Positions 1 through 62,827 of a stretch of DNA of 64,000 nucleotides are shown piece after piece. The notes beneath the pieces were generated by a model, which saw only the letters and a program-made list of their open reading frames with translations, had not been told where the DNA came from and made no database searches. How positions within the stretch are numbered: the stretch's first letter is position 1; each line of letters begins with the position of its first letter. The translations under genes were made by a program, and so were the position numbers. This stretch comes from Mesostigma viride (lineage: Eukaryota > Streptophyta > Mesostigmatophyceae > Mesostigmatales > Mesostigmataceae). The stretch lies in assembly GCA_009746045.1 (NCBI GenBank), contig RPFO01000034.1, forward strand, positions 1,067,786-1,131,785. The letters are read 5' to 3'.

Positions 1-236
1 CCCTGGCCGCTTTCAATCGGCTGTCCACTTTGTAACAATAGTGGTCCTGGCCGGTTCCCCAACGTTATCGCGAGCCAACTTGCGAAGCCGTAGCTGGGGA
101 TTCATAAAAGATAACCATCTTTAAACAGGCTTGGCATCCAAGCGGATACCATTAAGTTGTAACCTGAGACAAGATTCCTGCTACAAAGTCAAGTTGGTTG
201 TAGAAAAAGTCAGGCGACCTTCACTGGGAAGGAGCA

Positions 237-3200: not shown

Positions 3201-5326
3201 AGCTCACATAAGCCCAAGGTGCAGCGGTAGGCATAAGGGTGACCACAATGCGCAAAGCTCGTTCATGCAGGCATGAGACTGGGCAGGACACTGTCACTCG
3301 AAGTACTGTGACTGGGGTACGCATAGAGGTGATGTTCTGTCGCGGCTTTGAGATGGCGTGAAGTGGACATGGTCACATGGTCACAGAGAAGGCTGGGTCG
3401 TACCAATAGCTGTACCCGACCTTTATGACACCCGCCTCTGCTGCTGTGAAGATCTTCATTGTGCTGCGGTCACAGTTGCATGCATCTTTTGCTACTGCAT
3501 AGATCAATTTGTGTCTAAATAGTAGTACCTGATCATGTTGATTGCTTCATCTTGCACACCATGGCATGCCGCAGGGCCACTATGAAGCCATGTGCTTCCA
3601 GAATATCCCTCGCTTATACTGTGCTTGTGCCACAATGATGTTTCTGGGCTTCCCTGACACTCCTCCATTGCCGTATCGGTTTACGCGCTGGCCCTCCCCA
3701 AGCCCTCTTGTGCCCCCCAAACCGCCCAGCGTAAGGAAGAGGTCCGATTCTGCCGTTACATTCCTCCCCGGGTGCTATCAACTTTTTGTCTGCTATCAAC
3801 TAATGGTCTGCTTTCAACTAATTGTCTGCTATCAACTTTTTGTCTGCTATCAACTAATGGTCTGCTATCAATTTTTTGTCAGCTATCAAGTAATGGTATG
3901 CTATCAACTAATGGTCTGCTGTCAACTAATGGTCTGCTATCAACTAATGGTCTGCTATCGACTAATGGTCTGCAATCAACTAACGGTCTGCTATCAACTA
4001 ATGGTCTTCTGTCAACTAATGGTCTGCTATCAACGCATCCACCCAGGGCCACGATGAAGTCCCTGGGCGACCGCGCTGAGCGTGACCGCGTGGAGTACAT
4101 GCTGGCGCGCGGGGCTACGCTGTGGGAGGCCCTGCGGCCCATGGTGGCGTCGGCGGTATTAAACGGCCTCACGCCGCTGCTCAACTCGATGGCCATCATG
4201 GGACTCGTGAGCATCCCTGGCATGATGACAGGGCAGATCCTTGCTGGGGGGGCTCCCACGCAGGCGTCCCGATACCAGGTGAGTGAATGGGCGGTCTCAT
4301 GCTCTCATCCGGCACATTGCGGTCTGGAGTACTGCTATACTGTATTCTTGTATCCTCATACTTAAATCCTGTATACTTTCATCCGGTACATGGCTACGAT
4401 ATTGTCACGAGGTGTGTGTTGTGCCTCCACATGCCCGACACGTATCTGGTGTCTGGGTAGCCAGTAGTGTACTGCATCGCCATGCAGTGTTACTTGTCCA
4501 GGGAAGCACGATGCTGCTATGTGGGTGTGCACATATCTTATCTCTCATCGGTGATGTTTTCATGTGGTGAACTGCGGTGCTTCCCTGGATAAATGATACC
4601 TGCGGCGCTTCCCTGGATAAATGATACCTGCGGTGCTTCCTGGTGGGTGTGCATCATGCTGTGTTTCCACTGTGTGAGACGCAGCACTACCAGGTGGCAC
4701 CGCCCAGCAGCCTGCCTCTTGAATCGTTTGCTCACTTCACATCCACTAGGCATCACGCCCATGATGTGTGTGTCCTGTTACCTGTTTGAACTGGCAGATC
4801 CCGGGCAAAGATGCCCTCGTGTTGCGCTGGCAGCATTGGAATGATTAATTTACACATAGACTGCGTCACATAATGATCGGCGAACCCTGAGCATCATTGC
4901 CTCGCTGAGCTTTATCATTTACGATCGCAGGTAGTCGAAACGCAATGTTGAATGACGGCATTTGATTTCGTCAACAATCTTGCGTGTAGGATGGAGACTG
5001 TTCGGTGACATGACGCTATGCTTGAAGTCTCTAAATGGATAGTCGCTCTACTTGCGTGCGGTTGCTTTTTGTTTTCCTCCCCCTTTGTTTTCCTGCCATG
5101 GCCCCAGTCCATCATCATGTTCATGATATTCTGCAGCTCCATGATCACGCTCCTCCTCAGCATCTTCCTCTCCCTGCGGGCACTCACCGACTCGGAGCAG
5201 CGACTGCGGCCCGAGCGGCTTCAGCTGCAGCAGGGCAAGAGCACCTTTGTGTCTAAGATCACCGCTGTGATCGTCCCTGCGTGGGTCAAGGATAAGCTTA
5301 GTGCATGCAACAGTTGCTTCCGCTAA
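237..5326 (+). CDS. FetB/ALS3 (STAR2)-type ABC transporter permease, six exons
   Basis: Membrane half of a two-part ABC exporter of the UPF0014 family (bacterial FetB, iron export; plant ALS3/STAR2, aluminium tolerance). Proposed exons: 237-271, 995-1129, 2121-2199, 2658-2926, 4047-4278, 5108-5326. Every junction is GT-AG, all phases agree, and the total is 969 nt (322 aa). Exons 2-3 give a membrane segment followed by LERRIMLSSARCILQLTMLG. Exon 4 holds two hydrophobic stretches and ends in MLGMVLGNSISAVALGLG. Exon 5 carries the family core: LARGAT near residue 190, then NGLTPLLNSM and GLVSIPGMMTGQILAGG. Exon 6 gives the last membrane helix and a basic tail. Bacterial and plant relatives are about 260-280 aa, so the N-terminus and tail are somewhat long. 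The start in exon 1 (MDLLVDSNILAR) rests on context and phase only. Its likely ATPase partner is the convergent gene at 14708-19422. Substrate cannot be read from sequence. Confidence 0.88.
1765..1942 (+). repeat. Degenerate CTACTATCTTCAG-type tandem repeat in intron 2 of the permease gene
   Basis: About ten imperfect copies of a pyrimidine-rich unit (ctactatcttcag / ggctactatcttaaac) end in a run of G. They lie inside the 1130-2120 intron, about 180 bp upstream of the exon 3 acceptor. Not coding. Confidence 0.7.
3775..4034 (+). repeat. 18-bp minisatellite abutting an intron acceptor
   Basis: About 14 copies of CTATCAACTAATGGTCTG with few substitutions end 12 bp before the AG at 4045-4046 that opens exon 5 of the permease gene. 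Each unit contains CTAAT, which resembles an intron branch point. The 18-bp period keeps several frames open, so the long open reading through it is not evidence of coding. Confidence 0.85.
4560..4655 (+). repeat. Short tandem repeat in intron 5 of the permease gene
   Basis: Three copies of a roughly 27-bp unit containing ctgcggtgcttccctgg, the last one diverged, in the 4279-5107 intron. No function suggested. Confidence 0.6.
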
Positions 5327-14707: not shown

Positions 14708-17700
14708 TCAGCCTCGGACCCTCAAGCCCCCCATTTGCAGCCAATATGACGCAGGGGCAGCCGCTCTGCTCCGCACTACTTCCAATTCTACTCCCTTGTC
14801 GCCAGACCATTCACCTCGCATATCACCAAGGCTGGCACCCGCGGCGTCGCCGGAGGCCCCATGATGATCACACGTACTAGCATCCCCACGAAAAAAATCC
14901 GTGGCGGTGGCGTCGCCAGTAGCGGATGGCCCAGCCCCGTCACTCTCCATGGGTCCGTGACATGGGAAGGGGCTATCGGACGTCCTCGTGTCTGAAGATG
15001 GTGACGTCATGTCCCTGCCAGCGACTTGGGATGGGCTGCCATCCGCTTGCCGAGAGCCTGTCTGGGTGCCGTGTGCACCAAGCTCCAGGTCCCTGTCGGT
15101 ATAGAGAAATTTGACAGGGAAACAAGATACGCCACCCGATTTCATTATCAGGGCCTTGTTAGTAGCCGTGCTCATGAGTACGGGCTTGTAACCATCAGGT
15201 CCCGCACGAGGCATTAATCATAGAGAAATCACAGCGCAGCCACCATACAGGCTATCGAGCTATCAGGTTTATCGAGAACAGAGGTACTCGATGCGCAGGA
15301 ACACATGGTGACCTCCTGGATGATTGCCAGCTCTCGTGCACTGACTATTGCCAATGCCAAGCTTGCTACCCGCCGTCACAACGCTGTGCAATGAACAGCC
15401 AGGCTATAGCTAGCTTCTATCCTAGACACAATCCCAAGGCCAAGAAAGACACTCCCAGCCTAAACGTATCCATGAATTCAACATCGAATATATTTCCCAA
15501 CCGGGTTGTCTGCCGCAATTACCCAAGTACTGAGCACAGGGGTTCCCTTCATAGACCCCCCCCATTCACTCCTGATACTAGCACCAGGCATGCAGCGGCC
15601 TCTTTACACCAGAGAAAGGAACCAAAAACCATACAAAAAACACCAAAAGAACGCATAGTAGTATAAAAACCTACAGACAAACAACAACAGAGGAGCCGCC
15701 AAACTGCCCCGGCCCCCTTACCAGAGCAGCACGCGCTGCGCCTGGTCGTTGGAGTGGGTCACCCACACCAGGGTGGCGCCGCACGCGCGCAGGGTGGCCT
15801 CCACCCCGCGCGTGGAGGCCACGTCCAGCGCGCTGGTGGGCTCGTCCAGCAGAAGCACGTGGGGCCGGCTGGCCAGCGCCAGCGCCAGCGCGCACTTCTG
15901 CTGCTCGCCGCCACTCAGCTGCTCCCACGGCTTGTGGAAGCAGGCGGCCGCGTCCCACTGCCACCCGGACGATAGGGACAGAGCGTCCACTAGCAGCGAG
16001 GGGGGGAGGAGGGGGAGGAGGGAGAGGGCGGCGCGAGGTCTTCGAGGGAGGCGTATGCGGCGTGACGGCCGAGGGAAGCGCGACCGTGCGTCGACAGGTC
16101 AGCGCCGCGGCCTAGCCAGCGGAGCCAGCGCGATAGCTGGTGGCGGTGGCAGTGGCGGTGGCGGTGGCGGTGGCGGTGGCGGTGGCGGCGCCGGTGGCGG
16201 TGGCGGTGGCGGTGCATGGCGGTGGCGGTGGCGGTGGCGGTGGCGGTGGCGGTGGCGGTGGCGGTGGCGGTGGCGGTGGCGGTGGCGGTGGCGGTGGCGG
16301 TGGCGGTGGCGGTGGCGGTGGCGGTGGCGGTGGCGGTGGCGGTGGCGGTGGCGGTGGCGGTGGCGGTGGCGGTGGCGGTGGCGGTGGCGGGGGCGGTGGC
16401 GGGGGCGGGGGCGGGGGCGGGGGCGGGGGCGGTGGGGAAAGTAGATCAGGAGAGGCAGGCAATTCCATCCAGACAGGAATCTGCACTATTCTTATTAAGG
16501 AACTTCAGGAAAAGGAATACATATGTGGCCTACATCACGGTAATTGGTGCTAACTTAACGATGGTTGGTGCCTACGCAGAAACTAGCGCCTTATCTGTTG
16601 GGGCAGGGGGTTGGGGGGGCAGAAGAGAGAGAGCAAGAAAAGCGGGTCGATTTTGTTTCACCAGAAAAACTAAGTATGACATCTAATACTGCTTAATGTA
16701 ACAAGTACGTTTCCAAGAAAGCTTGACCGGTTTCATGACAAGATGGTGATGGGACGATTGGCAGTTCTGCGATGCCAGCAAATGAAGCAAGTGTCAGCAG
16801 CGACAAAGGAACGTGCCATACCTTGAGGTCCATGCCAGCTCATGGGAGTACTGAGGTATTGATACATGGCGCACATGGAGTAAGGAGGGACTACCAAATG
16901 AGGAATTATACATTCATTCTAATTTGGACATCTCGTGAAGTCCGAGTGGTGAGATCGACAGCATTGTAGTGATACAAGATGGTGGGGGTTGCCTGGCCCC
17001 AACGAGGCCGTTAGGGTTTGGGTACTGCAGTGCAGATTTACACATCAACCTCTTGAGGTAGCTGCCCACTACTAGTAAAAAAAATTAAATTAAATTATAA
17101 CATGCCTCCGTGGGGGGGTCATGTAGCACATATTCCATGATGGATGGGGTGGAGGAAGCCGCGTGATCGAACTATACTAACGCTAAGCTATCTAGAAAAT
17201 CCTAACTACACTACTCATCAAAACGCCTCCTCCGCTTGGGGGGAGGTGGCTTGCCCACAGGGTCGGGCGTGTGTGCCTTGACAATCTTCTTGCACCGCGT
17301 CTTGTCCTGCATGGCAGTCCAAAGACGGGAGAGAGAGTGGATGCGGTGCTCAAACTGGGCTGGGACCACTAGGTCGTCCAGCAACATCTGAACGTAGTTC
17401 GTGACAGGTTTCCCTACCCTTTTGGGAATGTCCTCGGGGCCAGGCCAGGTCAGAATGTGCCGCCCTGGCTGGCCAAGCCGCTGGGGGCCGGCCAGACCAA
17501 GGGTGGTGTCGACCTGGCTGGTGCGGGCAAGGTGTCCTACAAATGCTATCCTACGCTGCCTAATCTCGTCCGAAATACGAGGCATGCCATGATACAAAGA
17601 CTCTGATGACGGACGCTCGGAAAAATCTACCTGTCGGAGCATCCTGTAAACCGTGCCGTCTAGCCTAGCTGCCAGTTTGGGTGGGAGGGTCCACGCCTCG

Positions 17701-19422
17701 GCGCCATACGTGAGCACCGTGAGGACGAGGACCTTGAAGAGCATGCGCTTGCGGTGCCCGCCCAGGCCCTTCGAGCGCCAGTAGGGTGTGAGCGAACGGA
17801 GCTTGGCCCAGGCAAGGCCGATGCGGGTGTCCACATCGTCGGCGGTGTCAGGAAGCCAGCTCCCCAACAGCTTGAAGCGGTCGCGGAACGGGACCTCCGT
17901 CCCGTCGAGCAGGCGCGGCAGCGGTGGTTTACTGGAGGCCCCAATCACCATCGCCTCGGTTTTGACACTAATCTCCAGCCCCACCGCCCGCGCCTCCAGG
18001 CCCAGGCAGTCCAGCCAGGTCTGAATGTGCTCGGGGCTCTCGATGAGGGTGGTATCATCCGCATAAATCAGGTCGGCAAGGCGGTAACCAGGTCTAACCC
18101 CGCCGTGCTCTTTCACGTTAAGGATGTCCAAGCCTGGCTCGAACCCCTTAAGAGCAGTAAAGCGCGCACGTGCCCGGCGCATGACGTGATCCACGACAAT
18201 AATGAACAGGTATGGTGACAGGACACAACCTTGCCACACCCCGTGGTGAAGGGGGAATGGTGGGGTGGTGCCTTCCGCAGTCCGCACTACTGCCTGTGAG
18301 CCCTCATACAGTCGGCGAATGGCAGCGATAAACGCAGGTGGCACCCGATCCAGAGCTAGGATGGCCCAAAGAGCCTCCCAGAGAACCGTGTCAAAGGCTT
18401 TGATATAGTCAACAAAAATGAAGACCAGCGGCAAACTGTCAGGGGGAAGGCGACGCACCTCCTCCATCAATCGGCGCGCGACACTACTAGTACAACCCCC
18501 CCTATAGGCTTTACTTATCACGCATGCCTCCTGGATCCTGTCATGTGGAACCACCTAGGCACAGCGTGCATTACTGGCTTATGCAATTCCCGCTGGAGGC
18601 CATGGAGGATGCCGGGACAAAGGCTGTCCTCCAGCGAATTCCTGCTTGTGCCGCCTCGTCCCTCCTACCTGCCTCTAGTGTCCACAGTTTTTCATCCCAC
18701 GCAGTCCCGCCCATCGCTACCTCCTCCCTAATCTAATGTCCTCTCTTATCAACTCTCCCCCAGTTCTTCCTACCTACCTGTCTAGTGCCATCCCGTTGTG
18801 ATACACCAGGCGAAATTTATCACGAGCGCGCCCACGCACCCACGGTACCCGAGGCCCCGTCCGGTCCCGCGCTCCCTTTCTGTGCACCGCCAAGTTGGTG
18901 ATGAGCGAGCAGAGCTCGGCGGGGGTCTGCGAGTAGCCGGGGGAAGTGGGCACCTGCTGGTGGACGTAACACACCTGCAGGGTGGCAGGCGGCGGTAAAG
19001 CACAGCATTCATGAACACGTTAATAACGAATCGGTTTCATGCATGATCACCCGGCTCGCCTCATATAGGTACGCACGGCAACAAGAAGGACTCGGTGGGA
19101 ATAACGTAATTGGACATGTCAAGGTTCATACCCGCTGCCTCCATTCGTTGAAGCCCAATTCCCTGGGCGTTACGCCACCAAGGGTGAGCTCGCCACTGTC
19201 AACGGGCGCTAACAACGCTAAACACCTTAGCAAGCTGCTCTTCCCTCCTCCACTAGGGCCGGTGATTATAAGCCGCGCCCCAGACGGGATATCTGCGCTC
19301 AAGTCGGAAAAAATTACTCGCCGAACGGAGCTGCCTTCATCACTTCCGTTTGCATTAGCGTTACCGTCGGCGTTGCCTTCTACGGATCTTGAAAGGGAGA
19401 AGTGAGAAAAACATAGGCTCAT
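14708..19422 (-). CDS. FetA/STAR1-type ABC transporter ATPase, four exons
   Basis: Nucleotide-binding half of a FetA-FetB (STAR1-STAR2)-like exporter, expected to power the permease at 237-5326. Exon 1, 19422-19132 (97 codons), carries FSDLSADIPSGARLIITG and Walker A GPSGGGKS at residues 55-62, ending FNEWRQR. Exon 2 starts at 18974 with VCYVHQQVPTSPG (Q-loop) and reaches at least 18888. Exon 3, 15989-15722, has the signature LSGGEQQ, Walker B HVLLLDEP, D-loop SALD and switch His LVWVTHSND. Exon 4, 15092-14708, completes VLLW|DLELG and adds a Ser/Asp/Gly-rich tail of about 120 residues absent from bacterial FetA. Exon 1/2 and 3/4 phases match; the exon 2 donor is unresolved, because the obvious donors are phase 0 while the acceptor at 15990 needs phase 1. 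The 2.9-kb intron 2 holds a LINE and a GGTGGC array. The start could also be an internal exon, since a good acceptor (CTCCCTTTCAAG) lies near 19391. Confidence 0.83.
16139..16433 (+). repeat. GGTGGC hexanucleotide array
   Basis: About 49 hexamers, interrupted at 16190 and 16215, grading into GGGGGC at the right end. They lie within intron 2 of the ABC ATPase gene (as CCACCG/GCCACC on the coding strand). The long poly-Gly, poly-Pro and Arg-Trp frames across it are artefacts of the repeat. Confidence 0.95.
17079..18556 (-). mobile_element. 5'-truncated LINE with reverse transcriptase, inside an intron of the ABC ATPase gene
   Basis: A 447-codon frame (18554-17211) encodes most of a non-LTR reverse transcriptase: FVDYIKAFDTVLW, HHGVWQGCVLSPYLF, catalytic LIYADDTTLIE, KLLGSWLP, then the thumb and C-terminal YGAEAW...RRIAFVGHLAR. 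The fingers region and endonuclease are missing. The 3' UTR ends in CCCCCCCACGGAGGC and an AATTT-rich tail near 17080. Sequence pattern fits the RTE or L1 side of the LINE tree; I cannot choose. It shares the gene's orientation and is otherwise intact, so it is a fairly young 5'-truncated insertion. Confidence 0.85.
18560..18885. other. Intron 2 sequence of the ABC ATPase between exon 2 and the LINE
   Basis: Pyrimidine-rich on plus (CCTCCTACCTGCC, CTCTTATCAACTCTCCCCC). No gene or repeat recognised. Confidence 0.5.
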
Positions 19423-19593: not shown

Positions 19594-19603
19594 AAAATGA
19601 AAC
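19594..19603 (+). repeat. Target-site duplication, left copy (AAAATGAAAC)
   Basis: AAAATGAAAC directly abuts the outer end of the left arm and recurs exactly at 27953-27962 outside the right arm. Confidence 0.85.
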
Positions 19604-19644
19604 GAGTTTTTGTAAACATCAGACACTGATTTCTTCAGACGATG

Positions 19645-19785
19645 CACAAGGCTGGGCGCGGCGCAGCGTGCGCAAGGCTGGCGTGCGCAAGGCTGGGGAG
19701 TGCGCGAGGCTGGGAGTGCGCAAGGCTGGGAGTGCATCGTGGCTGGGCGCGGCGCGGCAGCGTGCGCAAGGCTGGCGCGTAAAAC
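19645..19785 (+). repeat. Subterminal GCGCAAGGCTGG repeats, left arm
   Basis: Six or seven imperfect copies of GTGCGCAAGGCTGGG and GCGCGGCGCAGC words about 45-180 bp from the element end; mirrored at 27771-27911. Clustered subterminal repeats are common transposase-binding architecture, but that role is inferred. Confidence 0.7.
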
Positions 19786-20509
19786 TGCAAACGACGTAAA
19801 TCGTATCGGCTGCCTTTGGACTTAGCCGAATTTCGTCGTCGATGCGAGTGGTGATGGCCGTTTAGATCTTAGTTTTTAACCCGACGGGTTTCCTTATGAT
19901 GCGTTCAAAATGGCAGCTGATGGCATGATTACTTAACATGTGGCGCGCGCAAAGAGCCTGTAGTCGTGCAGTTTACCCTCAATAATCAATCAATCTGAGT
20001 CTCGAGTCCACGTTGGAGTCCACTGACCCCCCGACTAGAATTTCCGACCCCCAATGTTGCACGCAAGCTATGCCTGCCATGCTTTTTCTATTTCCTAACA
20101 CCCACAGTTGGGGGATCATAGTCATTGACAATTTCTCCCCGTTGCTTTTTATGCTGCATATCCAACTATATCTGAGTAAGAGGGGTCGAGCGGATGACGC
20201 CGACATGGTTTGCATATACCTTCATAGTGGCTTCAAATCGTCATATTCTTGAAGCGCGGTCAGTTCAGCCCACAGAACCTTACGTACGTCTTACCAAGGT
20301 ACATGCACGGTGGGGACGCGGTCGGCCGGTCGGGGTTTGCCTGCTTTCTTTACCCAACCAGGGACATGTTCGTGATTTTCTTGCAGCGCTGGAAGATCAG
20401 TCCCGGGAAGAACCGCCTGCGACCCCTGGACCGTTCCGTTCCAACGATACCTGTGACTCTTCAGCATCAACGGTACGAATAGCACGAACCCGCCCACGTG
20501 CTTGGCCGC

Positions 20510-20616
20510 CATACCCGTTCCTAGTCATGCCATGCTCCTTCCTAGTCATGCCATGGTCGTTCCGAGTCATGCCATGGTCGTTCCTAGTCATGTCACTCCC
20601 GTTCCTAGTCATGCCA
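20510..20616 (+). repeat. 21-bp minisatellite, outer part, left arm
   Basis: Five copies of the 21-bp unit containing CCGTTCCTAGTCATGCCAT, cut off by the LINE tail at 20617. Mirror at 26939-27045. Confidence 0.9.
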
Positions 20617-21060
20617 TTAATTAATTAATTAATTAAAATGATAGCTCCGTTGGGAGCATATGTAACACATAGCCCTGAGAAAAGGGCATCTATGGGTTTG
20701 TAATACAATCAGGGCTACAACCTGCAGGTGGAGGATGTACAACTGTCACCTGCTCTGGGTGCACAAGGTGCACCTGCACCGCCATGATGGTTCATGCCTC
20801 CTTAACAAGCACAGGCACCCAGGGGGGGGCTTGAGGAGAGGGCCTAGAAGGCCTGCATGACATATGGGGTGGAGGGTATGTGGCTAGGCTATAGCTGGTG
20901 TACACATGGCATCTCAGCAGAGAGTAACTCCCTGCATAGGCATCGCATGGCTAAATTCTTAATGCATCATCCATGGGAGGTCCCATTGTAGGCTGGGCGC
21001 GGCTAAATACTGAAAGCATCATCCATGGGGGCCATTATGGGCGCACATGCGCGTGGGCCA
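20617..21060 (-). mobile_element. LINE 3' UTR fragment inserted in the minisatellite, left arm
   Basis: Minus-strand 3' UTR: GGGTGCACAAGGTGCACC-type block in reverse, AACCTGCAGGTGGAGGATGT, GAGAAAAGGGC and the terminal hairpin GCTCC-CAAC-GGAGC, then a TTAA tail at 20617-20636. GTCATGCCAT borders both ends but is also part of the minisatellite, so a target duplication is likely but not provable. Mirror at 26495-26938. Confidence 0.8.
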
Positions 21061-21061
21061 C

Positions 21062-21878
21062 GTCATGCCATACCCGTTCCTAGTCATGCCATGGCCGTTC
21101 CTAGTCATGCCATGGTCGTTCCGAGTCATGCCATACCCGTTCCTAGTCATGCCATGCCCGTTCCTAGTCATGCCATACTCGTTACTAGTCATGCCATGCC
21201 CGTTCCTAGTCATGCCATACCCGTTCCTAGTCATGCCATACCCGTTCCTAGTCATGCCATACCCGTTCCTAGTCATGCCATGCCCGTTCCTAGTCATGCC
21301 ATGGCCGTTCCTAGTCATGCCATGCCCGTTCCTAGTCATGCCACACCCGTTCCTAGTCATGCCATGCCCGTTCCTAGTCATGCCATACCCGTTCCTAGTC
21401 ATGCCATACCCGTTCCTAGTCATGCCATACCCGTTCCTAGTCATGCTGTACACGCTCCTAGTCATGCCACACCCGTTCCTAGTCATGCCATACCCGTTCC
21501 TAGTCATGCCATGGTCGTTCCGAGTCATGCCATACCCGTTCCGAGTCATGACATACTCATTCCTAGTCATGCCATACCCGTTCCTAGTCATGCTGTACCC
21601 GTTCCTAGTCATGCCATGGTCGTTCCGAGTCATGCCATACCCGTTCCGAGTCATGACATACTCATTCCTAGTCATGCCATACCCGTTCCTAGTCATGTTG
21701 TACACGTTCCTAGTCATGCCACACCCGTTCCTAGTCATGCCATGCCCGTTCCTAGTCATGCCATGCTCTTTCCTAGTCATGCCATACCTGTTCCTACTTC
21801 CTAGTCATGCCATACCCGTTCCTAGTCATGCTGTACACGTTCCTAGTCATGCCATGCCCGTTCCTACTCATGTCATGG
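21062..21878 (+). repeat. 21-bp minisatellite, main array, left arm
   Basis: About 39 tandem 21-bp units (core CCGTTCCTAGTCATGCCAT) with point variants (CATGGTCGT, CTGTACACG). Because 21 is a multiple of three, all frames give heptapeptide repeats (PVPSHAI, PFLVMPY, MTRNGYG on minus); these are not genes. Mirror at 25677-26493. Confidence 0.95.
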
Positions 21879-22528
21879 TTTTTACCTGTATGTCCTCTGC
21901 CCTTGGTGCCAGCGTTCTGTGAGCACCTCAATGTATGGTCTGTCGTGAGAACAATAATGGCAGTCTAGCCAACGTCGATACGTTCGAGTTGGGCTCATAG
22001 TTAGTTGGTTGTTGTCGACCCACACAATAGCTGTTGCTTGTGTTAATTGGGAAATGTGTTTTATTGCAGCTGAACATGTATCAAGCTTCATTGCAATCTA
22101 GCTGTCGCGAACGATTCCTCTAAATCATCTTTAGTGGTGATAGGTACCATTCGAGTGCCAACGGTGGAGACGTACAGGTTCTCACATAGAGGTGGGTTAA
22201 CTCGTAACAGTGCTATCAATTGCGTGCGATAAGAACGTGACTGCACCACGTGAACAAGAGACAATTATCAATATTATAATTAACAAACATCACGTGAGCA
22301 TTATTAAGTTTACATCATTTGCAGGTTGTTGCTTAGCACGCTTATAGACCATGTACCCCCTCTCACGGACATTTAATTAATTAATTAATACCACGTGACT
22401 GCGTGAGCAGTATCCTCATGAAGGGAATGGATGACATGCGAAAGAAACTATCTAAGCACGGGTAGCAGGATTGTGGGCCCCGCGGCCGGTGGCACTGTGC
22501 CGACCGTAGCGGGTTACCCGAGGTGCCC

Positions 22529-22796
22529 CTACCGGACATTAATTAATTAATTAATAGACACGTGACTGCGTCACGTGAGCATAAGTCCTCAGTGGGAGGG
22601 GAACATGGGATGGAATGGATGGTATAAGCTATCTAGGTCCTAGTTACAGGGGTGTGGGCACCGCGGCCCGAATCGCTATGAATGCCATACTTGGTCACAC
22701 GCGGAGCCCCCACAGACTTGGGGGTGGTCTCCTTCATCACTACTTGCCATCTATCCTTGCGCACCATCTGCCTTAATATTACAGACTACCGGACAT
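22529..22796 (-). mobile_element. Nested 5'-truncated LINE fragment with 11-bp target duplication, left arm
   Basis: 22540-22785 on minus carries the C-terminal RT codons (VVMKETTPK-, then VTKYGI-type reading) and the 3' terminus with the hairpin CACGTGACGCAGTCACGTG and a TTAA tail. CTACCGGACAT at 22529-22539 is repeated at 22786-22796. The target was itself an older LINE 3' end (ATCTCCCAACGGAGT at 22811-22825 with a CAATT tail). Mirror at 24759-25026. Confidence 0.85.
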
Positions 22797-22899
22797 GTGT
22801 TACGTGATCTCCCAACGGAGTAACGCTTCAATTCAATGCAACTAATACGTTAGACAGTATAATATTATCGTGACATGCATCACGTGAGCATAATGAATG

Positions 22900-22955
22900 C
22901 AATATCAAAGCGACTACCGGCGCAGGCCAGAAATCTGGAGAATATGTCAATATCA
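22900..22955 (+). repeat. Copy of the dispersed GGCGCAGGCCAGAAATC repeat, left arm
   Basis: TATCAAAGCGACTACCGGCG followed by CAGGCCAGAAATCTGGAGAA matches the copies listed under 10850-10975. Mirror at 24600-24655. Confidence 0.65.
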
Positions 22956-23345
22956 ACAAGTACTAGGAGCATAGAGTGTACGCATTATGACTGTCCTGGT
23001 TAGCCTTGTACTCAGACCCTACGTGGATCATGCCACGACAAATGAGGGTCGTACACACAACTCTTGGTTTAGCTCCGAGACCATGCAGTCATTGGCAAAC
23101 TTTGGAATTACCTCTTTCTCGATACTGTGCCAAAATTCCAAAACAAAAGAGGTGGTATGGACACCTGTAAAGAGCCGGTATGGACACCCACAGCTCTGCA
23201 CACATCTTGATTATCCAAGCAATTAGTGTACAAGTGTTTCGCCTCCGTGGCTTACCATTATGCATCATCAGCACAACAAGTTTTAACAGTGATTGCAAAC
23301 CACGGTTTTTTATGTGTCATGCAAGGTCTACCAAAAGGCGGTGTC

Positions 23346-24209
23346 ACCATTGCATTTTTAGGCCCAAATGCATGTGTCACCCGAAATGCATCTAAACCTT
23401 AAACCTTCCTCAACCTTTTCATGAAACAATCAAAGGTTCATTACAATATCTGATTTTCTCGCCAACTAGTTTTGCCTGTTGGCTTAGCCCCCCCAACATG
23501 GCCCGGGTAGCACGTGTTCGCCGCCCTCATCAGGGGGAATAGTATCACATTTGGTCAATAGGCCATACCAAGTCATGCTTGTTGCCCCAACCAACTAGAG
23601 CATATTCTCAATGCCCATTCCCGCCATCCAAGCTATGCCTCCTGTTTACCGCCGCAACACCGGTTGCCAGCAGCCCATTACTCACTTCACCCGCCGCTTG
23701 CTACACAAGGCCTTGCCGCCTTGCCCAACATGCTGCCTGCTTCGCCTCGTTCGGCCGAATTTCGCAAGTAACCTTGCAGTTCCAAGTACCTCAGGTTTGC
23801 TTGACATTCCCCCTCCCTCACCCCCTCCCACCCCCCCTCCCTCCCTTTTAGAAGCTACATACACCGCTACGTTCAAGAAGTATAAGTATTTATCTATATA
23901 TTATACAAAGTTGACAAGATATTTATCACACACTTAGTTTCAGTTGGCTAACTCGCTTTCTATGTCGTGTGCCCAAGGGGCTTTTTGTTGTGCATCGATG
24001 AATTACGCCAGACATAGGTGTAACTTTTCTGTACATGTTCTTGTTGTCGCTCTGTTGACTTGTTGTCGCTTCACAGGCAATGCACTATTGTGTGGAAGGA
24101 CGCGCATCCCCTGGAGAAGATGCGACTGTACCATTTTGCCCAGCTTCAGTGGCAAATGAAGGTGAAGAATATGCGTTGTGGCCTTCTCCTCAGCTGGACG
24201 ATGGAGAAC
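23346..24209. other. Unique 864-bp centre (spacer) of the giant inverted repeat
   Basis: Not shared with either arm. It includes a C-rich stretch near 23810-23850 and AT-rich DNA near 23880-23940. The longest open frames are about 108 codons and show no transposase motif. Nothing recognised. Confidence 0.7.
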
Positions 24210-27200
24210 GACACCGCCTTTTGGTAGACCTTGCATGACACATAAAAAACCGTGGTTTGCAATCACTGTTAAAACTTGTTGTGCTGATGATGCATAATGG
24301 TAAGCCACGGAGGCGAAACACTTGTACACTAATTGCTTGGATAATCAAGATGTGTGCAGAGCTGTGGGTGTCCATACCGGCTCTTTACAGGTGTCCATAC
24401 CACCTCTTTTGTTTTGGAATTTTGGCACAGTATCGAGAAAGAGGTAATTCCAAAGTTTGCCAATGACTGCATGGTCTCGGAGCTAAACCAAGAGTTGTGT
24501 GTACGACCCTCATTTGTCGTGGCATGATCCACGTAGGGTCTGAGTACAAGGCTAACCAGGACAGTCATAATGCGTACACTCTATGCTCCTAGTACTTGTT
24601 GATATTGACATATTCTCCAGATTTCTGGCCTGCGCCGGTAGTCGCTTTGATATTGCATTCATTATGCTCACGTGATGCATGTCACGATAATATTATACTG
24701 TCTAACGTATTAGTTGCATTGAATTGAAGCGTTACTCCGTTGGGAGATCACGTAACACATGTCCGGTAGTCTGTAATATTAAGGCAGATGGTGCGCAAGG
24801 ATAGATGGCAAGTAGTGATGAAGGAGACCACCCCCAAGTCTGTGGGGGCTCCGCGTGTGACCAAGTATGGCATTCATAGCGATTCGGGCCGCGGTGCCCA
24901 CACCCCTGTAACTAGGACCTAGATAGCTTATACCATCCATTCCATCCCATGTTCCCCTCCCACTGAGGACTTATGCTCACGTGACGCAGTCACGTGTCTA
25001 TTAATTAATTAATTAATGTCCGGTAGGGGCACCTCGGGTAACCCGCTACGGTCGGCACAGTGCCACCGGCCGCGGGGCCCACAATCCTGCTACCCGTGCT
25101 TAGATAGTTTCTTTCGCATGTCATCCATTCCCTTCATGAGGATACTGCTCACGCAGTCACGTGGTATTAATTAATTAATTAAATGTCCGTGAGAGGGGGT
25201 ACATGGTCTATAAGCGTGCTAAGCAACAACCTGCAAATGATGTAAACTTAATAATGCTCACGTGATGTTTGTTAATTATAATATTGATAATTGTCTCTTG
25301 TTCACGTGGTGCAGTCACGTTCTTATCGCACGCAATTGATAGCACTGTTACGAGTTAACCCACCTCTATGTGAGAACCTGTACGTCTCCACCGTTGGCAC
25401 TCGAATGGTACCTATCACCACTAAAGATGATTTAGAGGAATCGTTCGCGACAGCTAGATTGCAATGAAGCTTGATACATGTTCAGCTGCAATAAAACACA
25501 TTTCCCAATTAACACAAGCAACAGCTATTGTGTGGGTCGACAACAACCAACTAACTATGAGCCCAACTCGAACGTATCGACGTTGGCTAGACTGCCATTA
25601 TTGTTCTCACGACAGACCATACATTGAGGTGCTCACAGAACGCTGGCACCAAGGGCAGAGGACATACAGGTAAAAACCATGACATGAGTAGGAACGGGCA
25701 TGGCATGACTAGGAACGTGTACAGCATGACTAGGAACGGGTATGGCATGACTAGGAAGTAGGAACAGGTATGGCATGACTAGGAAAGAGCATGGCATGAC
25801 TAGGAACGGGCATGGCATGACTAGGAACGGGTGTGGCATGACTAGGAACGTGTACAACATGACTAGGAACGGGTATGGCATGACTAGGAATGAGTATGTC
25901 ATGACTCGGAACGGGTATGGCATGACTCGGAACGACCATGGCATGACTAGGAACGGGTACAGCATGACTAGGAACGGGTATGGCATGACTAGGAATGAGT
26001 ATGTCATGACTCGGAACGGGTATGGCATGACTCGGAACGACCATGGCATGACTAGGAACGGGTATGGCATGACTAGGAACGGGTGTGGCATGACTAGGAG
26101 CGTGTACAGCATGACTAGGAACGGGTATGGCATGACTAGGAACGGGTATGGCATGACTAGGAACGGGTATGGCATGACTAGGAACGGGCATGGCATGACT
26201 AGGAACGGGTGTGGCATGACTAGGAACGGGCATGGCATGACTAGGAACGGCCATGGCATGACTAGGAACGGGCATGGCATGACTAGGAACGGGTATGGCA
26301 TGACTAGGAACGGGTATGGCATGACTAGGAACGGGTATGGCATGACTAGGAACGGGCATGGCATGACTAGTAACGAGTATGGCATGACTAGGAACGGGCA
26401 TGGCATGACTAGGAACGGGTATGGCATGACTCGGAACGACCATGGCATGACTAGGAACGGCCATGGCATGACTAGGAACGGGTATGGCATGACGTGGCCC
26501 ACGCGCATGTGCGCCCATAATGGCCCCCATGGATGATGCTTTCAGTATTTAGCCGCGCCCAGCCTACAATGGGACCTCCCATGGATGATGCATTAAGAAT
26601 TTAGCCATGCGATGCCTATGCAGGGAGTTACTCTCTGCTGAGATGCCATGTGTACACCAGCTATAGCCTAGCCACATACCCTCCACCCCATATGTCATGC
26701 AGGCCTTCTAGGCCCTCTCCTCAAGCCCCCCCCTGGGTGCCTGTGCTTGTTAAGGAGGCATGAACCATCATGGCGGTGCAGGTGCACCTTGTGCACCCAG
26801 AGCAGGTGACAGTTGTACATCCTCCACCTGCAGGTTGTAGCCCTGATTGTATTACAAACCCATAGATGCCCTTTTCTCAGGGCTATGTGTTACATATGCT
26901 CCCAACGGAGCTATCATTTTAATTAATTAATTAATTAATGGCATGACTAGGAACGGGAGTGACATGACTAGGAACGACCATGGCATGACTCGGAACGACC
27001 ATGGCATGACTAGGAAGGAGCATGGCATGACTAGGAACGGGTATGGCGGCCAAGCACGTGGGCGGGTTCGTGCTATTCGTACCGTTGATGCTGAAGAGTC
27101 ACAGGTATCGTTGGAACGGAACGGTCCAGGGGTCGCAGGCGGTTCTTCCCGGGACTGATCTTCCAGCGCTGCAAGAAAATCACGAACATGTCCCTGGTTG

Positions 27201-27952
27201 GGTAAAGAAAGCAGGCAAACCCCGACCGGCCGACCGCGTCCCCACCGTGCATGTACCTTGGTAAGACGTACGTAAGGTTCTGTGGGCTGAACTGACCGCG
27301 CTTCAAGAATATGACGATTTGAAGCCACTATGAAGGTATATGCAAACCATGTCGGCGTCATCCGCTCGACCCCTCTTACTCAGATATAGTTGGATATGCA
27401 GCATAAAAAGCAACGGGGAGAAATTGTCAATGACTATGATCCCCCAACTGTGGGTGTTAGGAAATAGAAAAAGCATGGCAGGCATAGCTTGCGTGCAACA
27501 TTGGGGGTCGGAAATTCTAGTCGGGGGGGTCAGTGGACTCCAACGTGGACTCGAGACTCAGATTGATTGATTATTGAGGGTAAACTGCACGACTACAGGC
27601 TCTTTGCGCGCGCCACATGTTAAGTAATCATGCCATCAGCTGCCATTTTGAACGCATCATAAGGAAACCCGTCGGGTTAAAAACTAAGATCTAAACGGCC
27701 ATCACCACTCGCATCGACGACGAAATTCGGCCAAGTCCAAAGGCAGCCGATACGATTTACGTCGTTTGCAGTTTTACGCGCCAGCCTTGCGCACGCTGCC
27801 GCGCCGCGCCCAGCCACGATGCACTCCCAGCCTTGCGCACTCCCAGCCTCGCGCACTCCCCAGCCTTGCGCACGCCAGCCTTGCGCACGCTGCGCCGCGC
27901 CCAGCCTTGTGCATCGTCTGAAGAAATCAGTGTCTGATGTTTACAAAAACTC
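24210..27952 (-). repeat. Right arm of the giant inverted repeat (3743 bp)
   Basis: Reverse complement of 19604-23345. It contains mirror copies of every left-arm feature: nested LINE 24759-25026, main minisatellite 25677-26493, LINE 3' UTR 26495-26938, short minisatellite 26939-27045, subterminal repeats 27771-27911. Confidence 0.95.
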
Positions 27953-27962
27953 AAAATGAAAC
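27953..27962 (+). repeat. Target-site duplication, right copy (AAAATGAAAC)
   Basis: Exact partner of 19594-19603, directly abutting the right arm. Confidence 0.85.
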
Positions 27963-36692: not shown

Positions 36693-39608
36693 TTAATTAA
36701 TTAATTAATAGACACGTGACTGCGTCACGTGAGCATAAGCCCTCAGTGGGAGCGGAGCATGGGATGGAATGGATGGTATAAGCTATCTAGGTCCTAGTTA
36801 CAGGGGTGTGGGCACCGCGGCCCGAATCGCTACATATGAATGCCATACTTGGTCACACGCGGAGCCCCCACAGGCTTGGGGGTGGTCTCCTTCATCACTA
36901 CTTGCCATCTATCCTTGCGCACCATCTGCCTCCATATTACAGACAAACCAGGAGGCTGCCCGGGGGTGAGCCCGTCACGTCTAGTGTAGCACATGTCCAT
37001 GCCGAGTCTATCACGAAAAGTCCACGGGTGGCGGCCCTGCCGCGCGCGGCCGGGGGCACGCCAGGTGAGGACATATCGCCCAGGCTGGGCGGGCTTGGTG
37101 CCAACTAGTCTATCTGATGTATCTACCTGATTTGTGCGGGCCAGGTGCCCGGCTAGGCCCAGGCGCCTGTGCCTAATAATGTGGGAAACATAGGGCAAAT
37201 CAGCGTACAAATCCTCATTACTAATGTGCAAACCAAAGGGGATGTTAAGGGCCTGGCGCAGCATCTTGGTGACGGCGCCGTCGAGTCGTTGCTCCAGCTC
37301 CTGCGTCAGTGCCCACGTCTCGGCGCCGTAGGTCAGGATCGTCAGAATGACGACCTTGAAGAGGTCACGCTTGACGATCCGGGGTAGGGCGGGGTTGCTC
37401 CACCAGCGGCGGTGGTCATGGAGGTGCGCCCACGCCATGCCGATCCGTGTCGTCATGTCATCCTCGCAGTCGGGAAGCCAACTGCCGAGCAGCTTGAAGC
37501 GGCCTGAAGTAGGGTAGTTGACCTCGGCATCGTCTAAGAGGCGGAGTGTGGGTGGGGGCCCTGCCATGCCGAGGGCCAGGGCCTCCGTTTTGGGGCTGAT
37601 TTCTAGACCAACCGCCCGAGCCTCGAGCGCCAGGCAGTCCAGCCAAAGTTGGGCAGACTCCGGCTTCTCGATGAGCGTGATGTCGTCGTCATAAATGAGG
37701 TCAGCTAGTAAATTCTGCTTGTTAGTCGGCCCCCCTTCCCCAAGCTCGTTCGTGATCGCTAGGCCAGGGGCACGGCCTGCAATGCTAGCAAAGCGAGCAC
37801 GTGCCTGGCGCATAACATAATCCACTACAATAATAAACAGGTACGGCGACAGGACGCAACCCTGCCAGACGCCGGTCTGCAGTGGACATGGCAGGGTAAA
37901 GCCGTGTTGAGTGCGCACCGAAGTGGTCGACCCCTCATACAGCGTGCGGATGACGGTAATCAGGGGAGTGGGGACGCGAGCGCGAGCAAGTACAGCCCAT
38001 AGAGCGTCCCAGAGGACAGAATCAAAAGCCTTAATTGATGAAGTCGACGAAGATCAAGATTGCGGGAAACTCACCAGGTAACTTGCAGGAGAGCGATTTC
38101 CTCGAAGAGGCGACGCGCGACGAAGATGGCCATGACGGTGTTGCGCCCAGGACGGAAGCCCATTTGACTTTCCCCAAGGTGACAGTCGAGAGCAGCAGAA
38201 CTGAAGGCGGTTGAGGATCATGCGCATGAACAACTTAAGTGCGGCGCTCTGGATGCAGACTCCTCTGTAGTTGGCGGGGTCGTCAGGGGAACCTTTGTTT
38301 TTGTACAGCATAATACCGGGTAGCTGTGCTGCCACTCAGGAATCGGCGGCGCGTCGGCAAGCAGGATCCGGTTGCAGACGTCAAGCAGGAACCCCGTGAG
38401 CGCCGTCAGCTTAATCACCGGGGCTGGGAGCTGGTCAGGTCCAACGGCGGCATAGAAGCGGAGTTGCTTGGCGGCGGTGCTCAGCTCGAGCTCGGTGAAC
38501 GGCGCCGGAGCTCGTTGGGGTCGGCCAGGGGTTCCGTCAGGGCTGGGTACGTGTAGTCCTGCTCAGCGGCGGGCGGCGTGGGCGCGGCGCAGGGACGTCC
38601 GCCGGTGCTACTGCCAGGCGTGCGGCCGCCAGAGGGCCAAGCGGCGGAGGCGGCGGGGGGGCGCCGAGCAGCCGGGACTGGGAGGAATACCACTGGTCGA
38701 GCTGCTGCTGCGGTGAGCCAGAGAGCGTCCGCGGCGCCGGCTGCGCGCCGCCGGCGGGCCGTTGGGCGTGACGCAGGCGGGTCCAGGCGTACTTGCCGTG
38801 CTGGTCCTTGAGGTGGGCGAAGTACTCGCGGACATGAAGGTCCTCCTGCTGCTCCTTGGTCGCCTGCCGGATGGCCGAGTGGTAATCGGCTTTGAGGCGG
38901 GCGTAGCGGGCGGGGTCGCTGTTGTCGCGCAGGGCTTGCCGGGCCTGGATGACGGCGGGGAGCCGGTGCAGGCTGGTGAAGCGGGGCGGGCGGCGGGGGG
39001 GCAGTAGGGCCCCGGCCGCGGGCAGCTTGTCAGCGAGGTGCCGAAGGGCCGATGCCGGGCCGGCAGCGAACAGCTGGGCGTGGCTGGCCGGGATGTCCAG
39101 CGCGTCGACGAACGCCTCTGCGGCGCGCTTGTGCAGGGCGCGTTTTTCAGGGAAGTCCTCCAGAGCGTCGTCAGATTTCTCGAGCAACTGAAGTGTGCGC
39201 AAATCAGGTGGTGCCACGTGCTTACGAAAGGGCGAGGGGAATCGCAGGCGGATGCGGGCGGTGACGATGCGATGATCGGAGCGCACCAGGGGGATCACAT
39301 GCGAGCGAGCAGCTAGTACAGATCCTTGATGACGCTTGCGCATTACAACATAGTCAATGCAGCGTTCAGTGCCAGTTGGCGAGGTTTGTGTGACCAAAGC
39401 ATCTGGACTATGTGGAAAGCGAGTGTTGGCAGTGACCAAATCGCATGTCCTAAGCAAATCAGCAAAAAGTTCAGTGTTGACATTGGAGACCGTACCGTTG
39501 GGGGCGTGCTGACATCCGCCAGTACCCGGTGGTAGCGTGGCGTTGGCGTCCAGCAGCAGAGCGAGGTAGTTGCGACCAGGGATGATCGCAAATGGCAGTC
39601 CATTTCTC
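36693..39608 (-). pseudogene. LINE copy with endonuclease and reverse transcriptase, frameshifted
   Basis: A 5'-truncated element running 39608 to 36693. The C-terminal half of an apurinic-like endonuclease is at 39600-39180 (LLLDANA, ERCIDYVVMRKR, SDHRIVTARIRLRF). A linker follows to 38540. RT fingers are at 38340-38050 (YKNKGSPDDPANYRG) in broken frames. The RT palm to C-terminus is open for 362 codons at 37918-36830: GVWQGCVLSPYLF, catalytic box LIYDDDITLIE, YGAETWALTQELEQRLDGAV, RRLGLAGHLAR. The catalytic box reads YDDD where the 17-kb and 53.7-kb copies have YADD. The 3' UTR ends in CACGTGACGCAGTCACGTG and a TTAA tail. It is dead by frameshifts. Confidence 0.85.
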
Positions 39609-39732
39609 CTAATTAATTGTCAATCATGCGCGCACGGAGTACGGTTAGTCCCAGAAGCCCTCATCTTCATTACAGTAGCGGGACACGCAGCTCAGATGTG
39701 AGATGAGGATTATTATGTACCCCTCTAGTGAC

Positions 39733-39879: not shown

Positions 39880-40158
39880 TGGTGTGCCCCGGGCCGAGCG
39901 CGACCGGGGCCGGCGCCACCCGTGGACTTTCCGGCCGGGGATAGGCTTTTAATTGGCATGGATATGTCATTACCCACAGTCGTCGCAATGGGCTCACGCC
40001 AGGGCAGCCACCTGGCATGTCTGTCATCTGGAGGCAGATGGTTCGCAAGGATATTGTTGGCTGCCAGGTCGTCATGAATAAAAGCCATCTGCCCCTTCTC
40101 GGGGATATGTGCTACATTGATATACTCCCAACGGAGTTATGTTACTAATTAATTAATG
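39880..40158 (+). pseudogene. LINE RT C-terminus joined to a CTCC-hairpin 3' end
   Basis: Broken codons read RRHPWTFRPGIG and a ...VIWRQMVRKD-type stretch, matching the C-terminus of the 36830-37918 protein. They run directly into GCCCCTTCTCGGGGATATGT and the hairpin ACTCC-CAAC-GGAGT at 40127-40140 with a TAAT tail. This links the RT gene to the hairpin type seen after the ORF1 genes. Confidence 0.7.
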
Positions 40159-40193
40159 CAGGTCTTCCTAGAGATAGCCACGCAGCTCCCGCG

Positions 40194-41078
40194 CATCCAT
40201 CCATCCATCCATCCATCCATCCATCCATCCATCCATCCATCCATCCATCCATCCATCCATCCATCCATCCATCCATCCATCCATCCATCCATCCATCCAT
40301 CCATCCATCCATCCATCCATCCATCCATCCATCCATCCATCCATCCATCCATCCATCCATCCATCCATCCATCCATCCATCCATCCATCCATCCATCCAT
40401 CCATCCATCCATCCATCCATCCATCCATCCATCCATCCATCCATCCATCCATCCATCCATCCATCCATCCATCCATCCATCCATCCATCCATCCATCCAT
40501 CCATCCATCCATCCATCCATCCATCCATCCATCCATCCATCCATCCATCCATCCATCCATCCATCCATCCATCCATCCATCCATCCACATCCATCCATCC
40601 ATCCATCCATCCATCCATCCATCCATCCATCCATCCATCCATCCATCCATCCATCCATCCATCCATCCATCCATCCATCCATCCATCCATCCATCCATCC
40701 ATCCATCCATCCATCCATCCATCCATCCATCCATCCATCCATCCATCCATCCATCCATCCATCCATCCATCCATCCATCCATCCATCCATCCATCCATCC
40801 ATCCATCCATCCATCCATCCATCCATCCATCCATCCATCCATCCATCCATCCATCCATCCATCCATCCATCCATCCATCCATCCATCCATCCATCCATCC
40901 ATCCATCCATCCATCCATCCATCCATCCATCCATCCATCCATCCATCCATCCATCCATCCATCCATCCATCCATCCATCCATCCATCCATCCATCCATCC
41001 ATCCATCCATCCATCCATCCATCCATCCATCCATCCATCCATCCCGGCATCCATCCATCCATCCATCCATCCATCCAT

Positions 41079-41114
<36 letters not shown>

Positions 41115-41116
41115 CC
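40194..41116 (+). repeat. CATC microsatellite, about 920 bp
   Basis: About 230 CATC units with two interruptions, near 40586 (CCACATCC) and 41044 (CCCGGCATCC), ending CATCCGTCCATC. Frames read IHPS on plus and MDGW on minus across the whole array; none is a gene. It starts 36 bp after a LINE tail. Confidence 0.97.
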
Positions 41117-41235
41117 GACGAAAAAAATGGCTGACGGCGGTATGGCTGACGGCTGTATGGCTGACGGCGGTATCGGGCTGACGGCGCAGTTCAGCTAGAT
41201 CTTTTGCATCTGAGCCCCACATTCGGTCAGACCGC

Positions 41236-45679: not shown

Positions 45680-45840
45680 CACCCACAGATTGCCGGATCG
45701 TTTAGCGTGTCCGAGTGCAGCTGTGGCATGCCTTTGGCATGAAGGAGAATGGGGGTCTCTGCCCTTTTCCTGTTGTGCACACACAGGGATTAAAAGCACT
45801 TCGGTGCTCCTTAACTCCCCAACGGGAGCACGTCATTTAA

Positions 45841-45883
<43 letters not shown>

Positions 45884-45888
45884 ATATA
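45680..45888 (+). mobile_element. LINE/SINE 3' end with UUCG-type hairpin and TAAA tail
   Basis: GTGCACACACAGGGATTAAA is followed by AGCAC-TTCG-GTGCT, then ACTCCCCAACGGGAGCACG and about 11 AATA units (45839-45888). Matching copies sit at 54700-54900 (plus) and 53635-53702 (minus). Confidence 0.8.
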
Positions 45889-46272
45889 TCCATCCATCCA
45901 TCCATCCACCCACCCACCCCACCCATCCACCCACCCACCCACCCACCCACCCACCCACCCACCCACCCACCCACCCACCCACCCACCCACCCACCCACCC
46001 ACCCACCCACCCACCCACCCACCCACCCACCCACCCACCCACCCACCCACCCACCCACCCACCCACCCACCCACCCACCCACCCACCCACCCACCCACCC
46101 ACCCACCCACCCACCCACCCACCCACCCGGCACCCATCCATCCATCCATCCATCCATCCATCCATCCATCCATCCATCCATCCATCCATCCATCCATCCA
46201 TCCATCCATCCATCCATCCATCCATCCATCCATCCATCCATCCATCCATCCATCCATCCATCCATCCATCCA
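45889..46272 (+). repeat. Compound CATC-CACC-CATC microsatellite
   Basis: CATC (45889-45907), CACC (about 45908-46127, ~54 units) and CATC (46134-46272, ~35 units), split by CACCCGGCACCC near 46123-46135. The right end runs into CACCGAATTTGTC, the edge of the element family at 49579-49779, so this may be the simple-repeat tail of a minus-strand element. Confidence 0.95.
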
Positions 46273-46380
46273 CCGAATTTGTCACGAATTTGCAAGTATA
46301 AGGAGGAGGTTCTTCCGAAAATTGGCTCCGCCACGTAGAGTTCCAACGGGCAAGTTGCAAACACGCACGTTACACCCCCC
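46273..46380 (-). mobile_element. Partial copy of the GGCGGAGCCAATTTTCGG element
   Basis: AATTTGTCACGAATTTGCAA to GGTTCTTCCGAAAATTGGCT and CGGGCAAGTTGCAAACACGC matches one half of 49579-49779 and its right flank at 50020-50115. Confidence 0.75.
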
Positions 46381-46530
46381 CCCTTGATGTTTAAGAATGG
46401 GGTCCGACCGACCCAGGGCTGCGATCTTAAACCAAAAATCGCATCCAGGGTTGACAATCTTAACATGAAGTAGGCACAAACCCCTCCTCGCGTGCCACTG
46501 ACCGCTACTCTAAAGCAGGCTTTGGTGTCT

Positions 46531-47023
46531 ACTTTAAGATCTTGTTGCCAAAACCAGCCCTGCGATCGTAAACAGAAAATTTCAAAATCCAGGGTCTCAA
46601 GATCTTCAACCTGAGAATCTTAAGCGTCAAAGGGGGGGTGTACTTGATAACGTCTAACGAAGCGAGCCTGTTGGCTGTTGCCCAGTTCAGTTCTCAGTTT
46701 ATTTCCCATGCGGCCACGCCGGCTTGCCCAGAGCCTACCAAGCCCGCCCAAAAAAGAGAGTGCGGCGTCACGTGGGCCTCAACAACAAGAATGCTCCCCC
46801 AGGCCCCCTCGATCCCACCGATTGCGAATCCCATATATGCCAGACCGTCATGTCATATCGAATCGCATGGCTCGACTGTCCATGGCCCGTGCAACCGCAT
46901 ACCCCCCCCCACACACACGTTTGAGATTCCCAGGTTTAAGATCTTGAGACCCTGGATTTATTTTTTTTTGGAATTTCAGGTTTAAGATCGCAGGGCTGGT
47001 TTCGGGAAAAAGATCTTAAAGAA
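46531..47023. mobile_element. Inverted-repeat (MITE-like) element with ~100-bp imperfect arms
   Basis: 46531-46630 (CTTTAAGATCTTGTTGCC, AACCAGCCCTGCGATC, CAGGGTCTCAAGATCTT) is the inverted counterpart of 46925-47022. The middle of about 290 bp has no gene. A further partial echo of the arm lies at 46390-46475. Confidence 0.7.
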
Positions 47024-62825: not shown

Positions 62826-62827
62826 TA

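Follow-up and report, generated by a model that had tools for sequence, protein, structure and literature searches.

To our knowledge, the acquisition of very long inverted repeats by transposons has mostly been inferred from old, degraded copies. The closest known case is maize Mu killer (Muk), an internally deleted derivative of a Mutator-like element (MULE) in which both terminal repeats come from the mudrA side, with an inverted duplication towards the centre; it is described as a single locus with halves reaching 1.298 kb into mudrA, and neither amplification nor sequencing of its centre succeeded (PMC3440606). Here we describe a near-perfect palindrome of 8349 bp from Mesostigma viride, located at positions 19604-27952 of a 64,000-nucleotide window (the whole stretch of DNA analyzed; contig RPFO01000034.1, positions 1,067,786 to 1,131,785). 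Based on its copies and on a longer relative in the same genome, it is very probably a non-autonomous palindromic derivative of a MULE that was dispersed by transposition. Like Mu killer, it has both termini from one parental end, an inverted duplication and an internal deletion; unlike Mu killer, its centres could be read, two palindrome types exist at 14 and 4 places, and, given the predicted splice sites, the inverted repeats would lack transposase coding sequence. What is new in comparison to Mu killer is thus a palindromic MULE derivative that is dispersed and whose joins are resolved to the base.

Other described systems share parts of this architecture. Tm1 Mutator/Foldback elements of root-knot nematodes have a Mutator-type transposase, target duplications of 9 bp and composite terminal repeats whose length varies (PMC3169594), and are similar in this to the family described here. 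The largest Tm1 category, however, consists of small elements resembling miniature inverted-repeat transposable elements (PMC3169594), and we know of no head-to-head junction in Tm1 that was traced to one parental end. In Galileo of Drosophila, which belongs to a different superfamily (P), the terminal repeats of non-autonomous copies vary strongly in structure, with abortive gap repair and template switching given as the cause (PMC4168063); we know of no junctions there by which a palindrome was traced to one parental end. Tomato MULEs with multiple long terminal repeats show terminal duplication and target duplications, and most of them (48 of 61) carry the extra repeats in tandem (PMC3310237), whereas the duplicated unit here is an entire 3.7-kb end in inverted orientation. 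Drosophila Foldback (FB) elements carry long inverted repeats containing tandem repeats (PMC3169594), comparable to our 3.7-kb arms with their 21-bp minisatellite; the likeness is one of architecture, and the parent's transposase points to MULEs. No earlier description of this palindromic element was found in the open-access literature searched.

Structure of the palindrome and its parent transposon

The window lies on a 4.4-Mb contig, and the assembly searched comprises 440 Mb in 2243 contigs. It encodes a plastid-type Rubisco large subunit of 475 aa, found twice in inverted orientation on a 205-kb contig, whose best PDB match is 1gk8 (Chlamydomonas), as would suit an alga of the green lineage. 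In a global alignment, the two arms of the palindrome differ by one substitution (window 19824, A vs G) and one single-base C indel at ~20026, and together they make up 90% of the element length. A single stretch of the arms shows 100% complementarity over 3319 bp, which excludes chance pairing. Outside both element ends, AAAATGAAAC is repeated in direct orientation. Parental coordinates below follow the numbering of parent copy F113; those of parent copy F1591 are 2 lower in the palindrome-related region. The features of the element are as follows (window coordinates, strand):

19594..19603, plus: target-site duplication, left copy AAAATGAAAC
19604..23345, plus: left arm, 3742 bp; its part 19604-23157 corresponds to F113 1-3555, the parental left end outside the transposase frames
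21062..21860, plus: 21-bp minisatellite (CGTTCCTAGTCATGCCATACC-like), main part, left arm (ends approximate)
23158..23164, plus: junction J1, a 7-nt insert TGGACAC where F113 3555 is joined to inverted 6450
23165..23345, minus: inner arm part, 181 bp, inverted F113 6450-6270, predicted to be wholly transposase intron
23346..24209, minus: unpaired centre, 864 bp, inverted F113 6269-5406
24210..24210, no strand: junction J2, the centre join, GGAGAAC[G]ACACC, with 1-bp microhomology
24210..27952, minus: right arm, 3743 bp, repeating the left arm (J1 included) in inverted orientation
25690..26493, minus: 21-bp minisatellite, right arm (ends approximate)
27953..27962, plus: target-site duplication, right copy AAAATGAAAC

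The left arm carries a 127-bp terminal repeat at its tip and the 21-bp minisatellite within, with 44 units in the whole arm when up to 5 substitutions are allowed. The centre contains the remaining predicted intron and, from transposase exon 2, ~130 bp. Neither a MULE nor a SWIM domain is encoded by the palindrome. An initial annotation of the window had given the same arm lengths, indel and substitution, centre and flanking 10-bp duplication, and our analysis reproduced them base for base.

The same annotation had suggested a Mutator-like affiliation and a search for an autonomous partner, and both suggestions proved sound: the genome contains a parent of 13.74-13.76 kb that has the same ends and a predicted MULE transposase. 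Two copies, F1591 (loci L025 and L029; 13,739 bp) and F113 (loci L015 and L030; 13,756 bp), share 99.9% sequence identity, are non-palindromic and have no long inverted repeat; the parental terminal repeats match perfectly for 127 bp and are 86% alike when 197 bp are compared. Two long open frames were found on the minus strand of F1591, at 8282-6390 and 5589-3937. The parent frames of L025 match PF10551 (MULE; 58.1 bits, cut-off 27.6, E 1.2e-15) and PF04434 (SWIM; 24.7 bits, cut-off 19.6, E 1.6e-5), and the parent frames also match PF21056 (ZSWIM1-3 RNase H-like domain; E 1.5e-7). Splicing from a putative GT donor (F1591 6483) to a putative AG acceptor (F1591 5537) would join both frames in frame. 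The predicted transposase points to the Mutator-like family, and the palindrome shares its ends with this full-length member: both palindrome ends match the parental left end at 99.9% or more over ~3.55 kb, and apart from the two 7-nt inserts, the whole palindrome can be aligned with the parent at 99.9-100%.

The order of a type I palindrome, to which the window copy belongs, is F1-3555, TGGACAC, inverted F6450 to 5406, F6270-6450, the insert again, and inverted F3555-1. The J1 insert TGGACAC is found again 16 nt further on. Since J1 is present in both arms, it is older than the head-to-head join. The palindrome thus consists of two head-to-head copies of the parental left end, with a scrap of transposase intron and exon between them, and its arms would hold only predicted intron and sequence downstream of the gene. 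Terminal repeats of this length without a transposase had struck the initial annotation as unusual; the length is real, but the arms were rejected as true terminal repeats of the family, given the 127-bp identity of the parental ones, and their length and lack of a transposase follow from the head-to-head duplication of one parental end.

In a second palindrome type (type II; loci L034 and L035), F1-2499 is joined directly to inverted F4267-1 with 1-bp microhomology; two copies were read from end to end and measure 6680 and 6339 bp. In addition, the type I copy L020 (contig C1802) contains J1 and a different centre join with 4-bp microhomology. This join extends the palindrome with bases that the window form lacks there, and L020 is therefore not a plain deletion of the window form. 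The microhomologies at the three head-to-head joins are thus 1, 1 and 4 bp.

Further members of the family were identified. F887 and F1215 are shorter relatives of the parent. Loci L013, L016, L017, L023 and L028 are parent-like over the stretch compared, with differing repeat regions in L023 and L028. Internal deletions gave rise to L024 (F3640 to F7679) and to L019, which contains 2500 unread bases, and L031 (C1580:486296-487247) is a 952-bp derivative composed of the left 685 bp and the right 268 bp of F. The parent copy L025/L029 (C1591:790206) sits in a short palindrome around AGAGGACTGAGTTTTTC, and a similar motif occurs near L027.

Genomic copies and target-site duplications

J1 has 36 matches in the assembly, all of them in inverted pairs (18 pairs; control 0). 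The pair spacing is ~1.25 kb in 17 of 18, as in the window, and 0.78 kb in one (L020). Comparison of the flanks gave 14 distinct type I insertions; the C1947 place repeats the C1579 insertion, and C1152, C1276 and two C1106 places have one flank in common. The latter four (C1106:8164429, C1106:8177074, C1152 and C1276) look like one insertion of an 11.8-kb palindrome form, present as tandem duplication or haplotype copies. Eleven type I elements were read whole (window, L009-L012, L014, L020, L021, L026, L027 and C1152), and the remaining J1 pairs are known from J1, tips and flanks, with C1276 running off its contig end. The type II junction (F2499/F4267) occurs at 4 places and the right-end sequence at 51.

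A search for the 33-base tip pattern that tolerated up to 2 mismatches gave 95 forward and 94 reverse places (189 in total; reversed control 0), and among the tips listed many are spaced ~8.35 kb apart, like those of the window element, and others ~13.7 kb. When neighbouring tips up to 40 kb apart were taken as a pair, 100 of the 189 tips gave 39 complete pairs: 23 left-right, 16 left-left and no right-right. Among the 16 left-left pairs, 13 contain J1 and 3 lie at type II junction places. This tally covered 38 of the 51 right-end places, the others being 12 on later contigs and C1034:18032; left-right pairs possibly holding other insertions are those on C1 at 4.06 Mb and 5.93 Mb, on C1580 at 1.13 Mb (20-23 kb) and on C446 (33 kb).

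Alignment of ten type I copies (those read whole except C1152) revealed a single base substitution, private to the window copy. The other differences are homopolymer lengths, changes in the 21-bp array, a 1150-bp insertion in L009 and the centre of L020. This near-identity suggests a recent spread, though homogenisation could mimic it. Locus L002 (C1330:9657-12094), on a 12-kb contig, has the left flank of the window copy, identical for at least 1466 bp, and shares its left end; it is the window insertion again, on a redundant or second-haplotype contig.

Target-site duplications of MULEs are typically about 9-10 bp (8-11 bp) long. Exact duplications of 9-10 bp were found in 19 of 24 rows. Counted as distinct elements, 17 of 22 have one; these comprise 11 of the 14 type I insertions, all three type II places with both flanks available, and three of five non-palindromic elements. 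The type II place on C1837 is outside this count, as its right end is beyond the piece examined. Left of L012 the element follows GTAAT, itself preceded by AAAACTC; these letters are those of the family tip, possibly the end of a neighbouring element.

Empty sites were sought for three copies (L011, window and L020) by joining their flanks. For L011 (C1215), the 44-base query of flanks and one CTTTCCCCGC had 413 matches when up to 3 mismatches were allowed; 16 of these were exact, and the reversed-pattern control matched none. The L011 palindrome was therefore inserted in a member of another repeat family, with a true 10-bp duplication. Furthermore, two copies carry arm-specific insertions: in L009, the 1150-bp insertion is present in the right arm only, with its own 10-bp direct repeat AGTACTTGTT, and in C1152, each arm contains a TTAA-flanked element at a different place. 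These insertions indicate that the arms are separate stretches of DNA. The earlier proposal that the whole structure had transposed, and was not a fold-back, is thus borne out by other sites with their own 9-10 bp duplications and by the related empty sites of L011.

Origin of the palindromes and competing explanations

We propose that the left end was first joined to an inverted transposase-intron fragment, which would have produced J1, and that the J1-bearing left end was then duplicated head-to-head at an asymmetric break, giving J2. Based on the 1-4 bp of microhomology at the junctions, the most likely route, to which we give about even odds, is microhomology-mediated end joining between two broken copies of this end, which could have been sister copies or fragments released by excision. 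The parental transposase, acting in trans, would then excise and reinsert the palindrome and leave duplications of 9-10 bp. With an intact transposon end at each outer tip, the palindrome would be mobile in trans, presumably through the transposase of this parent.

The second palindrome type and the different centre join of L020 indicate that palindrome formation recurred and that its products dispersed. Head-to-head joining of one end could equally be, or not be, a recurrent by-product of the transposition of this MULE, with the transposase rescuing the product via its functional tips. If true, recurrent head-to-head joining would be a general way in which foldback elements are born, seen here in one genome with a parent, two palindrome types, a re-joined centre and dispersed copies. 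Since near-identical palindromes coexist with a parent that has long open transposase frames, it is possible to read the joins at base resolution, to deduce in which order the events took place and to test the route.

Both arms of L034 and L035 have a 41-bp deletion in common, which is present in no other end of loci L001-L038. A private G is found in both L035 arms and, elsewhere in the loci, only in the left arm of L034. The 41-bp deletion in both arms and the G common to the L035 arms, together with the occurrence of all J1 sites in inverted pairs, favour duplication of the end of one molecule over two insertions followed by a deletion.

Several observations weigh against head-to-head duplication followed by transposition. 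Three of the 14 type I sites have no exact target duplication (L010, with 1 mismatch in 9, L012 and C1846), and neither do two of the five non-palindromic elements (F113, with 1 mismatch in 8, and L031, where no target duplication could be recognised). Empty sites for the window copy, which the initial annotation had proposed as a check, and for L020 were not found in the assembly by the flank-joining test. The L034 arms differ at 8 inner positions, the right arm being nearly parent-like, and the G of L035 is lacking from the right arm of L034; it is possible that these unequal type II arms are due to later conversion, a second source or another history. The junctions alone fit both end joining and snap-back synthesis.

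Snap-back (fold-back) synthesis, in which a broken 3' end folds or switches template and copies back to its own tip, is the most probable alternative, although we consider it less probable than end joining. The outcome would be equal, and the two routes differ only in the enzymology of the inverted join. The recurrence of the 7-nt J1 insert 16 nt further on resembles a template-switch mark, the second centre join of L020 with its 4-bp microhomology lengthens the palindrome by copied bases, and foldback priming at breaks has been demonstrated in yeast (PMC10622511). However, spacers of 864 and 1768 bp with 1-bp microhomology are poorly suited to intrastrand priming; yeast cases described in that study used 11-bp and 5-bp inverted repeats separated by 6 and 35 bp (PMC10622511).

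It is unlikely that the palindromes arose from two tail-to-tail copies by deletion between their inner parts, with the resulting left-left composite moving as a unit. Such tail-to-tail copies do exist on C1691 (left 1143685, right 1157670 and 1177491, left 1191095), which also speaks against head-to-head duplication, and the imperfect arms of L034 fit two source copies. Yet both type I arms have the same J1 and insert, and 36 of 36 J1 sites are in inverted pairs; the 41-bp deletion of type II is likewise confined to the two arms among the ends of L001-L038. Both types would thus need two adjacent copies of an otherwise unseen variant.

Long palindromes are expected to be fragile and, if transcribed, to give double-stranded RNA, and a genome with 18 assembled places of this inverted repeat offers a natural test of both. 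A further proposal concerns effect, not origin, and is compatible with the other readings: transcripts of the palindrome might form a long hairpin whose small RNAs would repress the parent as a mobile silencer. The architecture is that of maize Mu killer, with both terminal repeats from the mudrA-side end (PMC3440606). We regard the proposal as doubtful, because the predicted splice sites (F1591 donor 6483 and acceptor 5537, frame kept) would leave no transposase coding sequence in the arms at which a silencer could be aimed.

An assembly or library artefact by read fold-back, a known class for long near-identical palindromes, is rejected as highly improbable, given that each of 14 sites has its own flanks, that exact duplications are present at 11 of them and that the contigs reach 12 Mb in length, and given the related empty sites of L011, the one-arm insertion of L009 and the differently placed TTAA elements in the C1152 arms.

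Other repeats in the window

The L009 insertion is LINE-like (long interspersed nuclear element) by eye, resembling reverse-transcriptase frames of the window, and its start resembles arm sequence near window 22539-22760; from this resemblance, the arms may contain LINE tails. Long open frames that by eye resemble LINE reverse transcriptase/endonuclease lie at window 17211-18554, 36830-39619 and 55196-58041. An element of ~1.74 kb, with CCCGTG...CACGGG ends and TTAA on both sides, occurs twice in the C1152 palindrome, and a relative of it is located at window 47100-48640, 48903-49045 and 49104-49145 (95% over 1.5 kb, the rest weaker). Large minisatellites, with IHPS/MDGW and PTDR/SVGR repeats in several frames, occupy window 40149-41198, 45837-46619 and 62482-63742.

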